NCBI GenBank assembly: GCA_946480605.1
Contig: CAMLKW010000061.1
Span: forward strand, 1-20,204
Reading direction: 5' to 3'
DNA length: 20,204 bases
DNA from: an uncultured Roseateles sp.
GTDB lineage: Bacteria; Pseudomonadota; Gammaproteobacteria; Burkholderiales; Burkholderiaceae
The notes below the pieces were generated by a model. It was not told the DNA's origin. It made no database searches and was given only the letters and a program-made list of their open reading frames with translations. The position numbers were made by a program, and so were the translations under genes. Shown here piece after piece: positions 1 through 10,118 of the stretch (its first letter is position 1; the number at the start of each line of letters is the position of its first letter).

Positions 1-328
1 AGCTGACCAGGCGCACGCCCTGGTCGGGGTCGAAGCGCTTGACCGCCTTCATCAGGCCGACATTGCCTTCCTGGATCAGGTCGCCCTGCGGCAGGCCGTA
101 GCCCAGGTACTGGCGCGAGATGGACACGACCAGGCGCAGATGGGACAGCACCAGCCGGCCGGCAGCCTCCAGGTCGCCGGTCTCGCGCAGCTTGCGGGCG
201 GCGGAGGACTCCTCCTCGGCCGTCAGCAGCGGCAGGCGATTCACGGCCGAGATGTAGGCGTCCAGATTGCCCAGCGAGGGCACCAGGGCCCAAGGGTCGC
301 GGACGGCAATGGCGTTAGCAGCAGACAT
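1..328 (-). CDS. rpoH: RNA polymerase sigma-32 factor RpoH (5' part; runs off the window)
   Basis: Partial gene for the heat-shock sigma factor that directs core RNA polymerase to chaperone and protease promoters. About 109 codons are visible, beginning [18 protein letters not shown]. The visible part has the N-terminal sigma-32 region ([11 protein letters not shown] around residues 30-40) and the region 2.1-2.2 core-binding segment, including [14 protein letters not shown] and [12 protein letters not shown] at the window edge. This pattern is typical of RpoH rather than RpoD or RpoS, though the RpoH box and region 4 lie outside the window. The start at 328 is the first ATG in frame after the regulatory leader, with a modest GGA about 10 bases upstream. 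The leader carries a perfect CIRCE operator, so the gene is probably repressed by HrcA. It lies 157 bases downstream of cheW on the same strand, with a hairpin between. Confidence 0.95.
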
Positions 329-376
329 CGTCTTGATTCCTAGCAAGCCGCCGCGTGGGATGCAGCGGTGAAGGAG

Positions 377-406
377 ATATTAGCACTCTGAATCGTCGAG
401 TGCTAA
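377..406 (-). promoter_or_regulatory. Candidate rpoH promoter overlapping CIRCE
   Basis: Reading the minus strand, TTAGCA (plus positions 401-406) and TAATAT (377-382) are 18 bases apart. Each matches 4 of 6 bases of the sigma-70 -35 and -10 hexamers. The -35 lies inside the first CIRCE arm and the -10 begins in the second. Predicted transcription would start near 370 and give a leader of roughly 40 bases. This is inferred from position and consensus only; a heat-shock or other alternative promoter farther upstream is not excluded. Confidence 0.45.
380..406. promoter_or_regulatory. CIRCE operator (HrcA binding site) upstream of rpoH
   Basis: The sequence TTAGCACTC, a 9-base spacer and GAGTGCTAA form a perfect 9-bp inverted repeat. 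This matches the CIRCE consensus exactly in both arms and in spacer length. CIRCE is the operator of the heat-shock repressor HrcA, best known in front of groESL and dnaK. Here it sits 52 bases upstream of the rpoH start codon and overlaps the candidate -35 and -10 elements, so a bound repressor would block the promoter. hrcA itself is not in the window. Confidence 0.95.
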
Positions 407-1017: not shown

Positions 1018-4000
1018 TCATTCTGCCCGCTCCGGCCCGCCCGCCGGTGCCAACAATTCGTCAACCAGGGCCAGCAGTTCGCGCACGTCCAGTGGTTTGG
1101 TCAGGTAGTGCCGGGCGCCGGCGGTCTGAGCCAGCGCGATCTGTTCGGGCTGGGCGTTGGCGGACACGACGATGACCGGAGGCGGCGTGCCACCCAGGTC
1201 GCGCAGGTGGCGCAGCAGCACCAGGCCGTCGCCGTCGGGCAGCTGCCAGTCCAGCAGCAGCAGCGCCGGCAGCCGCTCGGACAGCGCGCGCTTGCCGGCC
1301 TCGGCGGTGGTGGCGATCTCCAGCTCCAGCCCCGGGCGCTGCTCCAGGATGCCCCGCATGACCTCCACGTTCAGCGGGTTGTCCTCCACATAGAGCACAC
1401 GGCGCTGCGGGCTGGCGCGCGGCGGGTCCAGCTCGCCCGGCAGAGTCTCGTGCGGCGCCAGCGGCTGCGCGCCGCCGGCCGGCAGGCGCAGCACGAAGCG
1501 GGCACCGGGGCCCTGGACCGCTTCGGCGCGCAGGCTGCCGCCCATCATCTCGGCCAGGCGCTGACTGATGACCAGGCCGATGCCGGTGCCCGGCAGGCCG
1601 CTGTGCTCGCGCCCCAGCCGGTTGAAGGGCTGGAACAGTGCCGCGCGCTGCTCGTCGCTCAGACCCAGGCCGGTGTCGCTGACGGCCACCTCCACCCAGC
1701 CCGGTTCGGGGCTGTGCGCCTCGATGTCCACGCTGCCGCCAGCACGGTTGTACTTGACGGCATTGCTGAGCAGGTTGGTCAGGATCTGCGTGACGCGCGT
1801 CGGGTCGCCCATCAGGCGCTGTGCGCCATCGTCCAGCCGTTGGACGATGGCGATGCCGTGCTCCGCCGCGCTGTGCTGCACCAGGGACAGCGCCCGGCCC
1901 AGCAGCGGCGGCAGCTCCAGCACCGCCGGGTCCAGCCGCAGCGAGCCGGCCTCGATGCGCGACAGGTCCAGGATGTCGTTGATCATCTCCAGCAGGTGCC
2001 AGCCGGCCTGCGTGATCTGCCGCGTGCGGTCGCGCTGGCCCGGTTGCAGCGGCTCGGCCGCGTCCATCTGCATCAGCTGCGTGAAGCCGAGGATGGCGTT
2101 CAGCGGCGTGCGCAGCTCGTGGCTCATGCGCGACAGGAACTCGTTCTTGGCGTGATTGGCCGCCTCGGCAGCCTCGCGGGCGCGGTCCAGCGCCTCCATG
2201 CGCAGCTGGTCGTTGATGTCCTCCACCACACCCACCAGCCGGTAGGGCCGGCCGTCGGTGTTGCGCAGCAGGCTGACCAGCACGCGGGCATGCACAACGC
2301 TGCCGTCGCTGGCCACGTAGCGCTTGAGCCGGCGGTAGAAAGGGATCTCGCCGCGGATCAGGCGGCGTCCCTGGCGGATGTCCTCGCGGCGGTCGTCGGG
2401 GTGGGTCACGTCAATGGAGCGCCGGCCGATCAGCTTCTCGGCCGAGTAGCCCACCAGGCTGCAGAAGCGCGCGTTGACCTCCTGGAAGCCGCCGTCGAGA
2501 TCGGTGAAGGCGATGCCTATGGGGGCCGTCTCGAAGATGCTCCGAAAGCGCTGCTCGCTCTGGCGCAGGGCCTGCTCGCCCTCGGCGCGGCTGGCGATCT
2601 CGCGCTCCAGCGCCGCGGTGCGCTCGTGCACCAGCGCCTCCACATGCTGGGTGCGGCCCGACATCAGCAGCAGCAGCGCGCCCACCATGGCCGTGGACAG
2701 CAGGCCCACCAGCGCGAACGCCCAGCTGCGGCCGGCCGGAGGCACCTGGCCGGGCAGGTCGTAGATGCGCACCTCCCAGGCCCGGCCGCCAAAGTTCAGC
2801 GGCAGCCTCACCAGCGGCAGTGCGGCGCCTGCGGTGCGCTGCACCGCCTCGCAGCCCAGCCGCCCCGCCAGCCGCTTGTGCACGGCATCGGCCTCCAGAT
2901 CGACCAGGCAGCCGCCCAGTTGCGGCGACCACTGCGCGGACAGCCGCGACAACAGCAGGTCGGGCCGCAGCGTCGCGAAGGCAACGCGGTCGGCCGGCCC
3001 CGGGCCGCTGCGCACCGGCTGGTAGACGACCACGCCGATGGCGCCCTCCTTGTCCTGCGACAGCTGGAAACCGGCCGACGCGCTGGCCCGACCGGTCTCC
3101 ATCGCGCGCTCCACCGCAGCGCGCGCGCCGGGGATGGTGCGGATGTTGACGCCCAGCGCCACCGCGTTGCGCGACATCGGCTCGATGAGGCGGATCGCGA
3201 TCATGTCCTCGTCGGGCATGGGCCTGAGGTCGCCGGCGCGGGTGCGGTCGCGGGCCTGGTAGTCGGGCAGGCCATCGGCCGCGGCCTCGGCGTTGAAGCT
3301 GCCCAGGTCCTCGCGTGCCACGCGCCGCGCCATGCCAAGCGCCAGCAGCGGGCTGTCCTCGGTCAGGAAGCCGCGCGTCGCGCGCTCCCATTCGTCGCGC
3401 GCGGGCTGGGCCTTGATCTTCAGCAGGCCGTGTGCGCCTTCCAGCGCCAGCAGCGGTTCGCGCAGCCGGCCGGCCAGCGCCTGCGCCGCGCTGGTGGCGT
3501 CGCGGGTGAAGTCGGCGCGGTTGCGCTGACGGTCCCATTCCACCGTGGCCGCCACGCCCAGGCCCACCAGCAGCGTGGTCAGCAGCATGGGCAGGCCCAC
3601 GCTGAGGCGCCGTGTGGCCCAGGCCGAGCGCGGATGGCCGATCAGCGCCAGTGTGATGGGCGTGGCGATCAGCACGCCCATCAGGTCGCCCGTCCACCAG
3701 ACGACCCAGACCAGGTCCATCTGCGCCGTCTCGATGATGCCTGCCATGCGCAGCAGCAGCGTCGCGCCGCTGGGGCTCACGCAGCCGGCCAGCACCGCAG
3801 CCGCCAGATAGCCCGCCACCTCGCGCGGCGACGCCAGCACCAGCGGCCGGCCGCACCAGCGCCGCATCAGCAGCGTGCCGACGGCCGCCTGCGCCGCCGC
3901 ACCGCAGCCTATGCCCAGCGCCAACGGGAGCACGTCGGCCCGCATCTCGCTGAGCATGGTGGCCTGCACGACGAAGGAGCCCAGCGCCACCGCCGGCAGG

Positions 4001-4182
4001 TAGCGCAGCCCTCCCACCAGCAGCACCGCCAGCCCCCAGCCGGCGGCCGGGTAGATGGGCGCCACCTGGTAGGGGGGCAGCACCATCAGCAAGCCCAACC
4101 GGGCCAGCAGGTAGTAGACGGCCGTGATGCCGGCCGACAGCGCCAGATAGCGGCCGACCTCGCGGGCCGTCAAGGGCCTCAT
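1018..4182 (-). CDS. Membrane hybrid histidine kinase, MASE1-CHASE-PAS-HisKA-HATPase-REC
   Basis: A 1054-residue hybrid sensor kinase. Residues 1-210 are strongly hydrophobic with several membrane spans, of the MASE1 type (PPYQVAPIYPAAGWGLA, WWTGDLMGVL). Residues ~215-480 form a periplasmic CHASE-like sensor (FNAEAAADGLPDYQ, RLIEPMSRNAVALG) closed by a membrane span at ~486-507. Next come a short coiled segment, a PAS domain (~540-660), HisKA with H688 in SHELRTPLN, an HATPase with N803 (NLLSNAVK), DTGLG 836-840 and GTGIGL 865-870, then a receiver with E933/D934, phosphoacceptor D978 and K1029. All catalytic residues look intact. The start at 4182 overlaps the permease stop as ATGA, so translation is probably coupled; the frame is open to 4317 but that extension lies inside the permease gene. 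No DNA-binding output regulator is adjacent, so the terminal receiver's partner is unknown. The ligand is unknown; CHASE domains usually bind small molecules. Confidence 0.93.
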   Translation of the reverse strand: MRPLTAREVGRYLALSAGITAVYYLLARLGLLMVLPPYQVAPIYPAAGWGLAVLLVGGLRYLPAVALGSFVVQATMLSEMRADVLPLALGIGCGAAAQAAVGTLLMRRWCGRPLVLASPREVAGYLAAAVLAGCVSPSGATLLLRMAGIIETAQMDLVWVVWWTGDLMGVLIATPITLALIGHPRSAWATRRLSVGLPMLLTTLLVGLGVAATVEWDRQRNRADFTRDATSAAQALAGRLREPLLALEGAHGLLKIKAQPARDEWERATRGFLTEDSPLLALGMARRVAREDLGSFNAEAAADGLPDYQARDRTRAGDLRPMPDEDMIAIRLIEPMSRNAVALGVNIRTIPGARAAVERAMETGRASASAGFQLSQDKEGAIGVVVYQPVRSGPGPADRVAFATLRPDLLLSRLSAQWSPQLGGCLVDLEADAVHKRLAGRLGCEAVQRTAGAALPLVRLPLNFGGRAWEVRIYDLPGQVPPAGRSWAFALVGLLSTAMVGALLLLMSGRTQHVEALVHERTAALEREIASRAEGEQALRQSEQRFRSIFETAPIGIAFTDLDGGFQEVNARFCSLVGYSAEKLIGRRSIDVTHPDDRREDIRQGRRLIRGEIPFYRRLKRYVASDGSVVHARVLVSLLRNTDGRPYRLVGVVEDINDQLRMEALDRAREAAEAANHAKNEFLSRMSHELRTPLNAILGFTQLMQMDAAEPLQPGQRDRTRQITQAGWHLLEMINDILDLSRIEAGSLRLDPAVLELPPLLGRALSLVQHSAAEHGIAIVQRLDDGAQRLMGDPTRVTQILTNLLSNAVKYNRAGGSVDIEAHSPEPGWVEVAVSDTGLGLSDEQRAALFQPFNRLGREHSGLPGTGIGLVISQRLAEMMGGSLRAEAVQGPGARFVLRLPAGGAQPLAPHETLPGELDPPRASPQRRVLYVEDNPLNVEVMRGILEQRPGLELEIATTAEAGKRALSERLPALLLLDWQLPDGDGLVLLRHLRDLGGTPPPVIVVSANAQPEQIALAQTAGARHYLTKPLDVRELLALVDELLAPAGGPERAE

Positions 4183-6746
4183 TCCGCCTGCGCCTCCCGC
4201 AGCGTCTGCACCACCGGGCGCTGCAGCACGCCGCGCAGGCTCCACCAGCCGGCGCCCCAGGCCAGCAGCGCGCCGCAGGCGGCGCTGACCAGCGGCACCC
4301 AGGGCTTGATCTGCCATTCGAACTCGAACACGTAACGCGACAGCAGCGCCGCCAGCAGCAGCGCCACGCCGCCGGCCAGGAAGCCGGCCAGCGCGCCCAC
4401 GCCCAGCAGCTCGGCGCGCTGCACCTGCGCCAGCAGCGAGGAGGGCGCGCCCAAAGCGCGCATCAGCCCGAACTCGCGGATGCGCGCCTCGCGCGTGCTG
4501 CTGACCGCCGCGATCAGCACCACCAACCCGGTCGCCAGCGTGAAGCCGAACAGGAACTGCACGGCCTGGATGACCTGGTTCAGCACGCCCTGCACCTGGT
4601 TGAGCTGGGCCGACACGTCGATGACGGTCAGGTTGGGGAACTGCCGCGCCAGCTCGCGGTCCAGCTGGGCGCCGGCCGGCATGCGATAGGCGGCGATCTG
4701 CGTGGCCGGCAGCTCCGGCAGCTCGGCCTTCTCGAACAGCACGAAGAAGTTGACCCGCATGGACGACCAGTCCACCTTGCGCAGGCTGGTGACGCGGCCC
4801 TGCACCGGCTGGCCGGCGATGTCGAAGGCCATGGTGTCGCCCAGCTTCAGACCCAGCGTCTGCGCCAGGCCTTCCTCAACGCTCAGGCCCGTCTCGCCCG
4901 GCGCGGCGGAACCCCAGCGGCCACCCACCAGCTGGTTGTGCGTCGGCATGTCGCCCGTGTGGCTCAGGTTGAACTCGCGCTCCGCCAGGCGCTGGGCGCG
5001 GTCCTCGCTGAACTTCCTGCCTTGCACCGCCTCGCCGTTGATGGCCGTCAGGCGGCCGCGGATCATGGGATACCAGTCGTAGTCCTTCACGCCGGCGGCA
5101 TCCAGGGTCTGCCGGAAGGCCGCGCCCTGGTCGGGCTGGATGTTGATGACGAAGCGGTCCGGCGCCGAGGCCGGCGTGGCCTGGCGCCAACTGGCGATGA
5201 GGTCGGTGCGCAGCAGCACCAGCAGCGCCAGCGCCAGCAGGCCCACGGCCAGCGACGACACCTGCATGACCGCGAAGCCCGGCCGCGCGGCGACCTGGCG
5301 CGTGGCCAGCAGCAGCCAGCGCGGCACGCCCGCGCCGCTGACGTTGGTGGGCACGATGCGGCGCAGCAGCTTCACGGCCACCCAGGCCAGCGCGGCGAAC
5401 ACCAGCACCGCGCCGGCAAAGCCGGCGGCCGCGATGGCGCCCAGCACCATGTCGCCGGCCAGCACCACCAGGATGGCCGCGAGGCCGGCCACGCCCGCGC
5501 CCAGCACCAGCAGCGAACCGGCCTTGGGCGCGCCCAGGTCACGGCGGATCACGCGCAGCGGCGGCACGGCGGACAGCTGCAGCACCGGCGGCAGGCCGAA
5601 GCCCAGCAGCAGCGACAGGCCCAGGCCCAGGCCCAGCAGCGCCGGCCAGACGCTGGGCACCGGCAGCGTCACGTTGATGAGGCCGGCCAGCAGCGACACG
5701 AAGACCTGGTGCAGCGCCAGGCCACCCAGCACGCCGACGAAGCTGGCGGCAAGGCCCGCCAGCAGGAACTCCAGGCCATAGGCCCAGGCGATGCGGCGTT
5801 GCGGCTGGCCCAGCACGCGCAGCATCGCGCAGGCGTCCAGGTGGCGCGCGGCGAAGTCGCGCGCCGCCAGCGCCACGGCCACCGCGGCCAGCAGCGCCGA
5901 CAGCATGGCCACCAGCCGCAGGAAGCGCGCCGCGCGGTCCAGCGTCTGGCGCATCTCGGGCCGGCCCGCCTCCAGCGACTCCAGCCGCACGCCGCGCAGC
6001 TTGTCCTTCTCGACCAGTTGCGCGGCGGCGCTCACGAAGCGCCGCACCGCATCCGGCGTCGCGCCGGGGCCGGGCACGACGGCCAGCCGGTAGGTCAGGC
6101 GGCTGGCCGGCTGCACCAGGCGCGTGGCTTCCAGGTCGGCCTCGGTCAGCATCACGCGCGGCGCGAAGTTGATGAAGCCGCCACCGCGGTCGGGTTCGTT
6201 CTGGATGAGGGCGGCCAGGCGCAGCGTGGCGTCGCCCAGCAGCAGCGGGTCGCCCAGCTTCAGGCCCAGCGCGTCGGCCACGGCCGGGTCGGCCCAGACC
6301 TCGCCGGCGGCCGGTGCGCCGGCGCGGCCGGGCAGGGCATCGCGCAGCGTGATCTTGCCGCGCAGTGGATAGCCCGCACTGACCGCCTTGACGGCCACCA
6401 GCCGGCTCTCGCCGCCGTGCGCGTCGTCGGCGCGCGCCATGCTCGGGAAGCTGGCGCTGCGCACGGTGGTCAGTTGGTGCTCGGCGGCGAGGTCCAGGAT
6501 GGCCTGCGGCGTCGGCTGGTCGCTGGCGACGACCGCGTCGCCCCCCAGCAGCTGGGCCGCGTCGCGGCGCAGACCCTGGTCCAGCCGGTCCGACAGGAAG
6601 GCCACCGCGCACAGCGCCGCGACGGCCAGCGCCACGGCCAGCATCAACAGCCGCAGCTCGCCGGCCCGCCAATCCCGCAACAGTTGTCGCCAGGCAATGG
6701 ACAGCGTGGCGGGCGGACGCTGGGCGGCTACAGCAGAGGACGTCAT
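4179..6746 (-). CDS. ABC transporter permease, YbbP/FtsX family
   Basis: An 855-residue inner-membrane permease resembling E. coli YbbP and other FtsX/MacB-type permeases, which act in lipoprotein or hydrophobic-compound export and in mechanotransmission. There is one membrane span at ~32-52, a large periplasmic domain at ~60-270, and two FtsX-like blocks of spans (~276-390 and ~727-836) with further spans at ~411-460 and ~492-513. REARIREFGLMRALGA (752-766) is the conserved cytoplasmic motif after the span at 727-750. A second periplasmic domain spans ~520-720. The start at 6746 (MTSSAVAAQR) precedes the IAWRQLLRDWRAGELRLL segment typical of the family; the open frame upstream to 6824 lies inside the peptidase gene. 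It begins 26 bases after the peptidase stop and its own stop overlaps the kinase start. Such permeases need an ATPase partner (YbbA-like), and none is encoded beside it here. Confidence 0.92.
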   Translation of the reverse strand: MTSSAVAAQRPPATLSIAWRQLLRDWRAGELRLLMLAVALAVAALCAVAFLSDRLDQGLRRDAAQLLGGDAVVASDQPTPQAILDLAAEHQLTTVRSASFPSMARADDAHGGESRLVAVKAVSAGYPLRGKITLRDALPGRAGAPAAGEVWADPAVADALGLKLGDPLLLGDATLRLAALIQNEPDRGGGFINFAPRVMLTEADLEATRLVQPASRLTYRLAVVPGPGATPDAVRRFVSAAAQLVEKDKLRGVRLESLEAGRPEMRQTLDRAARFLRLVAMLSALLAAVAVALAARDFAARHLDACAMLRVLGQPQRRIAWAYGLEFLLAGLAASFVGVLGGLALHQVFVSLLAGLINVTLPVPSVWPALLGLGLGLSLLLGFGLPPVLQLSAVPPLRVIRRDLGAPKAGSLLVLGAGVAGLAAILVVLAGDMVLGAIAAAGFAGAVLVFAALAWVAVKLLRRIVPTNVSGAGVPRWLLLATRQVAARPGFAVMQVSSLAVGLLALALLVLLRTDLIASWRQATPASAPDRFVINIQPDQGAAFRQTLDAAGVKDYDWYPMIRGRLTAINGEAVQGRKFSEDRAQRLAEREFNLSHTGDMPTHNQLVGGRWGSAAPGETGLSVEEGLAQTLGLKLGDTMAFDIAGQPVQGRVTSLRKVDWSSMRVNFFVLFEKAELPELPATQIAAYRMPAGAQLDRELARQFPNLTVIDVSAQLNQVQGVLNQVIQAVQFLFGFTLATGLVVLIAAVSSTREARIREFGLMRALGAPSSLLAQVQRAELLGVGALAGFLAGGVALLLAALLSRYVFEFEWQIKPWVPLVSAACGALLAWGAGWWSLRGVLQRPVVQTLREAQAE
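5616..5636. repeat. Short CAGGCC hexamer repeat in the permease gene
   Basis: Three full CAGGCC units plus a half unit lie in tandem. On the minus strand they encode the alternating Leu-Gly run LGLGLGL in a membrane span of the permease. Gain or loss of a unit would keep the frame, so any slippage would only lengthen or shorten the span by two residues. Confidence 0.8.
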
Positions 6747-8256: not shown

Positions 8257-8330
8257 GCGGGCGTCGTTCAATGGTAGGACCTGAGCTTCCCAAGCTCATG
8301 ACGTGGGTTCGATCCCCATCGCCCGCTCCA
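8257..8330 (+). tRNA. tRNA-Gly(CCC)
   Basis: A complete 74-nt cloverleaf. The acceptor stem is GCGGGCG (8257-8263) paired with CGCCCGC (8320-8326), followed by discriminator T and an encoded CCA end. The anticodon stem TGAGC/GCTCA encloses the loop TTCCCAA, giving anticodon CCC at 8289-8291. The T arm contains the usual TTCGATC loop. It reads GGG glycine codons and closely resembles E. coli glyU. It is the only plus-strand gene in the first 15.5 kb, and its 3' end is 15 bases from the stop codon of the convergent OLD-type gene. Confidence 0.98.
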
Positions 8331-8345
8331 CTTCGACAGTGAGCA

Positions 8346-10118
8346 TCAGTGCTGCCGGTTGCAGATGCAGTTGCGACAGGCCTGACGGGCCAGCACCGTC
8401 CCAGGTTGGCTGGGTGGTTGCCCATTCCAGTGGTGAATTGCAGACAGGATCTGTTCGATCACGGGTTGCATGGTCAATGCAGAGTCGAAGCAGGTCATCC
8501 AATCGACGAAGCGGCTCTCGTAGTGACGAGCGATTGCCACCTTCTTGCCTTTGATGTGCAGCAGGCGGTCCGGCTCTTCCTTGAAGTACGTCGAACGGAA
8601 TTCTTTGGGCAGGCTGGATTCGATGGTGTAGCCAGGCGTGAGCAGGCCGACGCAGGAAGGCGAGTTCAAGATCCTGATGTCATCGAGCATCGCCTGCTTG
8701 GCAGCGTTGACCTTCTCGGGCGCGATGTCGTCGCCGATGTCGTCGTCGCGATCCATCAGCACAACGAAGTTCCGGTTCAGCCGCGACAAGTCAAGTCGTT
8801 GTGTCGTCGAGCCATGGGCACCCAGGTGGGCCAGCACGGCGCCGCCGTGGAACGCAAAGCTGTAGTCGCGGTGCTCAAGCGGCAATGGAGCGCCGATATG
8901 GGCGCAATGGAGTGCCAGCCAGTGCTTGATGTAGATGCGGTCTGAAGGGCCCTCGACCCAGATGATGCCGTTGCTGACCCCGTACTCGCCGCCGCTGATG
9001 CCGAGCATGTCCAGCATGCGCCGTTCGTCGATCCCGGTATGCAGTTCGTGGGCGCCTGCCTCGAAGAACTTGACGTCCAGGGATGGAGCCGACGCGTTCC
9101 AGAGGAAACGGGACTGAAAGCTCATGGCATGCGTGGACAGGAACACTTGCAGCCCTTTGCTCCAAACGATGCGAGCCATCTCGGCGATGACGGCCCGCTG
9201 CAGGGCCGGATGCATGTGGCAGTCCGGCTCCTCCAGCACGCAGATGGAACCATCGGGTGCGGCATCCAAGCAAGTCAGCAATGATGCCGCGGAACGCCAG
9301 CCCGATGGCAGCGCTTCGGGGCTGACGATGTTCGCTTGGGTTCGATCGTCTGAGAGGTAGGCGGCCAGCTTGTTGCGCTCGAAGACGATGAACACATGAC
9401 GGTTGTCCATCCATTCGCTGTGCGGCGGGCGTTCTTCGAGGGGAGCATGTGGGTCCGATTCAAGTCCGGAGAGGTGTGCAGCAAGGCGGTTCAGCGTGGC
9501 AGCCAACGCGTCGTGGGGCGGCCTCGCGTCACGGTCCCAAACCGAGACGCGGCACTGCAGTGGCGCTAGCGCCCCGTTGAGCCAGGCCGTGGACGATGCG
9601 TCGAGTGCGACCTTGCTTACGTTCCTGCAATGCTCCGATAACGTCCCGTTCGCAAGCACAAACAGCTGCACATGCTGATAGTCGTGAAGGAAATCTCCGG
9701 CTTGCCTCGGTGGCATGGCAAACCCGTCGAGTGGGTTCGGGAGTACCGTCGCGTGGAGCGCGGCGCCGTTCTCGAAACGCAGGTCAATCAGACAGTGGCT
9801 GTCGCTCTTCCTGTTTTCTCGGGGCAGTGTGCCGAGCTTGCCGGGGATGCCAAACATTGCGACAAGGTCCAGCACCGTGCTCTTGCCGGCTCCATTGCGG
9901 CCAGCGAAGACGTTGATGTCACCGAACTCGTAGATTTGGCGGTTGTCATGCCAAGCAGCAAGGAGATCGGCGCCCTTGGCCGAGCATACAAAGGGGTTGA
10001 GTCGCCTTAGGCCTGCAAACGCAAGCGTGCTGATGCGCGGTCGGCTATGCGTCGCGTGCGGCTGGCTGCTGGGTGCCATGGGCGAGACGCCGCATTTCTC
10101 TTCAGTGCTGATATCCAT
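8346..10118 (-). CDS. Stand-alone OLD-family ATPase/TOPRIM endonuclease, candidate phage defence
   Basis: A 590-residue protein with an N-terminal ABC/RecF-like ATPase and a C-terminal TOPRIM nuclease domain, the OLD (overcoming lysogenization defect) architecture. Walker A is GRNGAGKST (73-81), a signature-like segment is at ~270-281 (LPSGWRSAASLL), Walker B with catalytic acids is CVLEEPD (293-299), and H330 lies in STHA. The TOPRIM domain shows E389 in WVEGPSD, the DRDDD acidic cluster (456-460), E500 in GYTIES and a lysine-rich stretch at ~524-527. All expected catalytic positions are present. Several OLD-type proteins act against phages. No UvrD-like helicase partner is adjacent, so it resembles class 1, not a Gabija pair. 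Composition differs: two hand-counted 60-base rows give 32 and 34 G+C, against 46 in rows from the neighbouring operons. The start at 10118 is the first ATG; no clear ribosome site is visible, and Met14 (10079) is an alternative. Confidence 0.88.
   Translation of the reverse strand: MDISTEEKCGVSPMAPSSQPHATHSRPRISTLAFAGLRRLNPFVCSAKGADLLAAWHDNRQIYEFGDINVFAGRNGAGKSTVLDLVAMFGIPGKLGTLPRENRKSDSHCLIDLRFENGAALHATVLPNPLDGFAMPPRQAGDFLHDYQHVQLFVLANGTLSEHCRNVSKVALDASSTAWLNGALAPLQCRVSVWDRDARPPHDALAATLNRLAAHLSGLESDPHAPLEERPPHSEWMDNRHVFIVFERNKLAAYLSDDRTQANIVSPEALPSGWRSAASLLTCLDAAPDGSICVLEEPDCHMHPALQRAVIAEMARIVWSKGLQVFLSTHAMSFQSRFLWNASAPSLDVKFFEAGAHELHTGIDERRMLDMLGISGGEYGVSNGIIWVEGPSDRIYIKHWLALHCAHIGAPLPLEHRDYSFAFHGGAVLAHLGAHGSTTQRLDLSRLNRNFVVLMDRDDDIGDDIAPEKVNAAKQAMLDDIRILNSPSCVGLLTPGYTIESSLPKEFRSTYFKEEPDRLLHIKGKKVAIARHYESRFVDWMTCFDSALTMQPVIEQILSAIHHWNGQPPSQPGTVLARQACRNCICNRQH

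Follow-up and report, generated by a model that had tools for sequence, protein, structure and literature searches.

A predicted HrcA operator over the putative core promoter of the heat-shock sigma factor gene rpoH in Roseateles and its relatives

The window, a stretch of 20,204 nucleotides of DNA from an uncultured Roseateles sp., carries upstream of rpoH what is very probably a genuine HrcA operator (CIRCE) that coincides with the sigma-70 (housekeeping) core promoter of the gene; HrcA would repress rpoH and groESL together. The HrcA/CIRCE circuit and sigma-32 are usually presented as heat-shock systems that run in parallel, and the model organism E. coli has no HrcA and sets its sigma-32 level largely after transcription. 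If the arrangement proposed here is true, a large bacterial group sets the transcription of its heat-shock sigma factor by chaperonin-sensed repression, and groESL and rpoH share one switch. Operator arms that overlap promoter hexamers would be a compact design, and lineages without HrcA, or with a sigma-E promoter outside the operator, would provide natural comparisons.

Materials and methods

Genome contigs were scanned with the RpoH fragment encoded in the window, and the best 80 of at least 516 stretches encoding a relative were kept, some of them from metagenome bins classified only to class or phylum. From the loci among these best 80 of at least 516, 18 genomes were chosen for the HrcA search. 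The order sample consisted of 60 genomes from the order of Roseateles saccharophilus. Its rpoH count comprised 58 loci in 57 genomes (one with two loci), R. saccharophilus being counted among the 80 and genomes G047 and G062 being dropped because RpoH was not above the cut-off. The class sample had 56 genomes, with RpoH above the cut-off in 53, HrcA in 37 and CIRCE in 38. From the phylum sample of 36 genomes, 29 loci were scanned, one rpoH copy each and some with short flanks.

The 159 rpoH sites compared with one another were those of the best 80 of at least 516 relatives, 50 of the order sample and 29 of the class sample. Two sources supplied the 38 groES sites that served as control, namely the 18 relatives' genomes and genomes of the order sample. 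The 48 hrcA loci were those of the 18 relatives' genomes and 30 of the 54 in the order sample. Shared ancestry is uncorrected in all counts that relate HrcA to CIRCE.

Results

The motif scan of the window gave the dyad TTAGCACTC-N9-GAGTGCTAA at 380-406 with 0 mismatches, i.e. a perfect CIRCE, located upstream of a heat-shock gene. The whole-window scan gave no other match at up to 3 mismatches, and there were 0 matches across 100 dinucleotide shuffles of the window. The initial annotation had reported an exact dyad before rpoH, spanning 377-406 and 52 bases from the gene. The exact dyad and its upstream position were confirmed. The CIRCE itself occupies 380-406 and the three extra bases complete the predicted -10 hexamer, while the counted gap between CIRCE and the rpoH ATG is 51 nt.

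The rpoH ATG is at 328-326 on the minus strand and the gene is cut by the window edge (Table 1). Translation of the open reading frame yields 114 residues, beginning 5 codons ahead of the ATG, and its best profile matches are RpoH (sigma-32 subfamily, 148 bits; TIGR02392, 142 bits). Since only part of the gene lies in the window, these scores stay below the full-length cut-offs of 241 and 323.

Table 1 Features at the rpoH end of the window
Feature	Positions	Strand	Basis
CIRCE operator (HrcA site), palindromic 9-9-9 inverted repeat	380..406	-, rpoH strand	motif match and conservation in relatives
Inferred -35, TTAGCA, start of the left arm in rpoH sense	401..406	-	18-nt spacing and comparative third-position G
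Inferred -10, TAATAT, formed by the final three right-arm bases and three bases beyond the palindrome	377..382	-	near-invariant last T
TG that may belong to an extended -10 (TGCTAATAT)	384..385	-	sequence
Predicted transcription start, about 7 nt past the -10	369..371 (near 370)	-	inferred from the -10 position only
rpoH (sigma-32), first 109 codons, continuing past the window start	1..328	-	profile matches of the translation
AGGA, likely rpoH ribosome-binding site	338..341	-	sequence

CIRCE with at most 2 mismatches was found upstream of rpoH in 80/80 loci of the best 80 of at least 516 relatives. The genera among them were mostly Burkholderiales (Roseateles, Comamonas, Variovorax, Acidovorax, Rubrivivax and others), the closest being R. 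saccharophilus DSM 654 (locus L001) with 93 % over the RpoH fragment. The 159 rpoH sites with near-exact arms comprised 151 different 27-mers, which means that the arms are kept while the loops vary. Judged by this distribution, a predicted CIRCE at rpoH is ordinary for the window's group. At one locus (L277, genome G085) a second CIRCE-like repeat, with an intact right arm and 1 mismatch in the left arm, was present five bases before the rpoH CIRCE, forming a tandem operator.

The operator arms appear to double as the rpoH promoter, the left arm serving as the -35 and TAA of the right arm, together with three outside bases, as the -10. In the window the hexamers TTAGCA (406-401) and TAATAT (382-377), separated by 18 nt, have 8/12 consensus matches, i.e. 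they are weak, and a stock promoter scan, which needs 9/12, gave no promoter at 300-520. The hexamers that had initially been claimed to overlap the CIRCE are thus present, though weak and below the threshold of that scan, and the support for them is comparative, with strong constraint across relatives. The final T of the -10, three bases past the right arm, was found at 157/159 rpoH sites vs 2/38 groES sites (p 1e-34). By set, this T was present at 80/80 sites of the best 80 of at least 516 relatives, at 50/50 in the order and at 27/29 in the class, and the -10 at the aligned rpoH sites was mostly TAAtAT or TAAaAT. The mirror bases left of CIRCE were rare, occurring at 1/80 sites of the best 80 of at least 516 relatives and at 3/50 order rpoH sites. 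The right-arm T that opens the -10 was present at 159/159 rpoH sites and at 35/38 groES sites.

At the rpoH sites the left arm, 18 nt upstream of the -10, reads TTAGCA or TTGGCA, and arm position 3 was G (TTGGCA) at 34/159 of them vs 0/38 groES sites (p 5e-4). When compared with TTGACA/TATAAT at the same spacing, most rpoH sites had 8 or 9 of 12 matches and none had more than 10; 35/38 groES sites had 7 or fewer. The TG of the possible extended -10 is no independent evidence because it is inside the operator arm. These comparisons suggest that CIRCE is used in two arrangements: at rpoH it would cover the core promoter, and at groES it would be near the start.

A further promoter-like element was found beside the operator in many relatives. 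A GGAACTT-like -35 followed after 15-17 nt by TCNNA was taken by us to be the sigma-E promoter motif. Such an element overlapped CIRCE in 39/80 loci of the best 80 of at least 516 relatives (200 shuffles: mean 0.3, max 2), in 32/50 order loci (200 shuffles: mean 0.2, max 2) and in 16/29 class loci (200 shuffles: mean 0.1, max 2). In the order sample its -35 mostly starts 16-17 nt before CIRCE and its -10 spans the loop and the adjoining left-arm end; among the best 80 of at least 516 relatives both hexamers are mostly shifted 4 nt further along, together. The element was absent from the window and from its nearest relatives L001-L003 in the motif search, and the best RpoE matches in the genomes of L001-L003 had 221-233 bits, just under the cut-off of 236 bits. 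Of the 18 genomes, 10/13 with RpoE above the cut-off and 0/5 without it had the element, overlapping or downstream, in a comparison that was made post hoc.

Just downstream of CIRCE, a sigma-E-like element was found in 9 other loci among the best 80 of at least 516 relatives (shuffles: mean 0.1, max 2), and not a single locus of the order or class sample showed this placement. The loci concerned are L004, L006, L010, L014, L020, L042, L044, L052 and L060, where the -35 follows the operator start by about 33 nt. HrcA control of the sigma-E input may differ at these loci.

If the HrcA operator were real and the main rpoH promoter located elsewhere, either upstream or as read-through from the CheW-like open reading frame that ends at 486 on the rpoH strand, 79 nt before CIRCE, HrcA would act as a roadblock or have little effect. 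The 8/12 hexamers of the window and the stock scan without a sigma-70 promoter at 300-520 would agree with such an arrangement, as would the several promoters known for E. coli rpoH, but across the relatives the sigma-E-like -35 adjoining CIRCE is the one element that stands out as conserved over the 60 upstream nt. Only 3/80 loci (best 80 of at least 516, some flanks short) had a relative of the CheW-like frame in the flank of rpoH, which indicates that conservation of the promoter region is a local feature of rpoH. Since the T past the right arm is also near-invariant at rpoH and not at groES, we consider a main promoter outside the operator unlikely.

HrcA was above the curated cut-off in 18/18 of the relatives' genomes in the profile search, and the window's own genome presumably also carries hrcA. 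The lack of an encoded HrcA, which had been named initially as an observation that would speak against the cascade, was therefore not seen among these relatives. In the order sample of 60, RpoH was above the cut-off in 58 and HrcA in 54 genomes, and the genomes had 0 (7 genomes), 1 (4 genomes), 2 (47 genomes) or 3 (2 genomes) CIRCE sites. The 52 HrcA-bearing order loci comprised 19, 21, 10 and 2 with 0, 1, 2 and 4 mismatches, respectively, and the best of the 6 HrcA-less loci had 5 mismatches. A site with at most 2 mismatches was thus found in 50/52 loci with HrcA vs 0/6 without it (Fisher p 7e-7, ignoring shared ancestry). In the HrcA-less genome G051, the 5-mismatch site is about as far from rpoH as the others and resembles a relic.

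Among 51 rpoH loci of the class sample, 29/33 with HrcA vs 1/18 without it had the site at up to 2 mismatches (Fisher p 6e-9, ignoring shared ancestry). One of the 4/33 HrcA-bearing loci that did not have it was a second rpoH copy, and two further class rpoH loci outside the 51 had 0 and 3 mismatches. The exception among the genomes found HrcA-less by the family search was G091, with a 1-mismatch CIRCE at rpoH (L291); its assembly may be incomplete or the loss of HrcA recent. By these counts, CIRCE and HrcA were mostly lost together, and the predicted wiring is frequent in the order and class samples. In the phylum sample, perfect rpoH sites were found in three HrcA-bearing genomes, all shared with the earlier samples. 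The 15 new HrcA-bearing loci comprised 14 without CIRCE at up to 5 mismatches and one with 4 (copy checked), and the presence of HrcA and RpoH thus does not everywhere imply CIRCE at rpoH. Our guess is that most genomes of the phylum sample are alphaproteobacteria.

The distribution of the site also bears on whether the dyad acts as an mRNA hairpin that sets message stability, not as a DNA operator. CIRCE in the leader RNA is reported to affect message stability in Bacillus, but HrcA-less loci kept the site in 0/6 cases in the order and 1/18 in the class, as a protein site predicts, and if the -10 is on CIRCE, CIRCE is upstream of the transcript. A hairpin function is in our judgement very improbable. 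That the CIRCE is a chance or relic match without function, as the one decayed site in a similar place in HrcA-less G051 (5 mismatches) might suggest, is refuted for practical purposes by conservation, with 0 matches in 100 shuffles and near-exact arms in 159 rpoH loci.

As to other targets of HrcA, 15 of the 18 relatives' genomes had two CIRCE sites and 3 had three (at most 2 mismatches), and all 18 had one at rpoH and one at groES. A GroES start follows 18 of the 21 non-rpoH sites, one in each genome; the remaining L127, L130 and L133 (2, 1 and 1 mismatches) had no downstream GroES motif. In the order sample, R. saccharophilus aside, the motif search placed a GroES start after every one of the first 20 of at least 37 non-rpoH sites. 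At 35/38 groES sites a TTGAA element like that of a sigma-32 promoter was present no more than 60 nt before the CIRCE.

A CIRCE within 3 mismatches was found at 0/48 hrcA loci and one with 4 mismatches was seen (1.5 kb flanks). In the window's order, hrcA thus appears to be free of repression by its own product, and the two recurrent HrcA targets appear to be groESL and rpoH. In the class sample at least 14 genomes had CIRCE within about 150 nt upstream of hrcA, as read from coordinates, which suggests that self-repression of hrcA was probably lost in the window's order.

Discussion

HrcA binding, repression, the transcription start and the heat response at rpoH are what we infer from sequence. 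An HrcA dimer on CIRCE would cover both the -35 and the -10 of rpoH and exclude RNA polymerase. At groESL, with a sigma-32-like promoter and CIRCE just downstream, HrcA would repress one main target of the activator as well as the activator itself. Active HrcA needs GroE, as established for the HrcA of Bacillus subtilis. Upon heat shock, damaged proteins would occupy GroE, HrcA would lose activity and leave both operators, rpoH would be transcribed and sigma-32 would rise, and groESL would be freed and activated together. New GroE would then restore HrcA and close the loop. The overall circuit would be a coherent feed-forward loop within negative feedback.

A cascade from HrcA to rpoH had been proposed in the initial annotation, and, a few exceptions aside, it is supported at the level of sequence by the conserved site, the presence of HrcA in relatives, the co-loss of the two and the promoter-like core. 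Its contrast with two separate circuits is less surprising than it was made to be, since CIRCE at rpoH has been published for Geobacter sulfurreducens (PMC545781, in the part of the text available) and is common in the order and class.

A CIRCE operator at rpoH is a known kind of thing. Work by Permina and Gelfand from 2003 is said to cover the HrcA/CIRCE regulons of beta-, gamma- and epsilon-proteobacteria and may predict rpoH as a target. In G. sulfurreducens, CIRCE upstream of rpoH was listed in 2004 as a candidate site, and the available part of that paper gives, as in the window, a perfect TTAGCACTC-N9-GAGTGCTAA upstream of rpoH (position -51 there) and a site at groESL (PMC545781). The hrcA-grpE-dnaK-dnaJ cluster of G. 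sulfurreducens also has CIRCE according to the same part of the text, whereas 0/48 hrcA loci of the window's order have it within 3 mismatches. On a promoter lying within the operator arms, the available part of PMC545781 is silent. In Agrobacterium tumefaciens groESL is under both RpoH and HrcA (cited in the available part of PMC11764788). Both heat-shock circuits thus converge on groESL there as in the window's group, although the title of the cited study terms the roles of RpoH and HrcA independent.

For the sigma-E-like element, the closest comparison is Bordetella bronchiseptica, from the same order as the window. In this species rpoH is called fam, and a sigma-E promoter directly precedes it. 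SigE of B. bronchiseptica transcribes the fam (rpoH) promoter region in vitro (PMC3490749, available part). This fits the element that overlaps CIRCE in many relatives; the window itself does not have it. HrcA and CIRCE are absent from the main text of PMC3490749.

In E. coli K-12 the same search as used for the relatives gave a sigma-E motif match at -121 in the rpoH upstream region, and the 250 nt before the gene had no CIRCE at up to 7 mismatches. E. coli was outside the control genomes that matched HrcA. The motif match falls in the region known to contain P3, the sigma-E promoter of E. coli rpoH. The name P3 is also found in the available part of PMC3490749.

Nothing on an overlap of operator and promoter at rpoH was found in the available parts of PMC545781, PMC3135505, PMC11764788, PMC3490749 and PMC3989490. 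The open papers searched gave no description of the operator-as-promoter layout, of the sigma-E overlap or of a regulon with two targets and no self-repression, which is weak evidence of absence.

We lean slightly towards an evolutionary reading in which the rpoH promoter of the common ancestor of the HrcA-bearing members of the class was a three-way overlap. The CIRCE arms would have served as the sigma-70 -35 and -10, the left-arm end together with the loop as the sigma-E -10, and the sigma-E -35 would have abutted the operator. One HrcA dimer would thus have gated both the housekeeping and the envelope-stress input to sigma-32 synthesis. By later rewiring the element would, among the best 80 of at least 516 relatives, have shifted by 4 nt, come to lie downstream of CIRCE or, as in the window, been lost, and HrcA-less lineages such as E. 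coli would have kept the sigma-E promoter only.

Other features of the window

An RNA thermometer in the rpoH leader gained no support, as the 121-nt fold of the predicted leader and rpoH start was no better than shuffles (z 0.07). A large hybrid sensor kinase (MASE1, CHASE, PAS, HisKA, HATPase and receiver domains) is encoded at 1018-4317 on the minus strand and adjoins the CheW-like open reading frame. Plasmid records searched with positions 1-1000 gave 112 matches, 0 of which extended over 80 % of the query, and the 20 matches listed were cheW-like and rpoH-like fragments with about 68-75 % identity. The sole match in the Rfam search of the whole window was a tRNA gene at 8257-8327 on the plus strand. 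Near it is an AAA-domain open reading frame (Pfam AAA_21) at 8346-10118 on the minus strand, which may represent a mobile or defence gene located at the tRNA.
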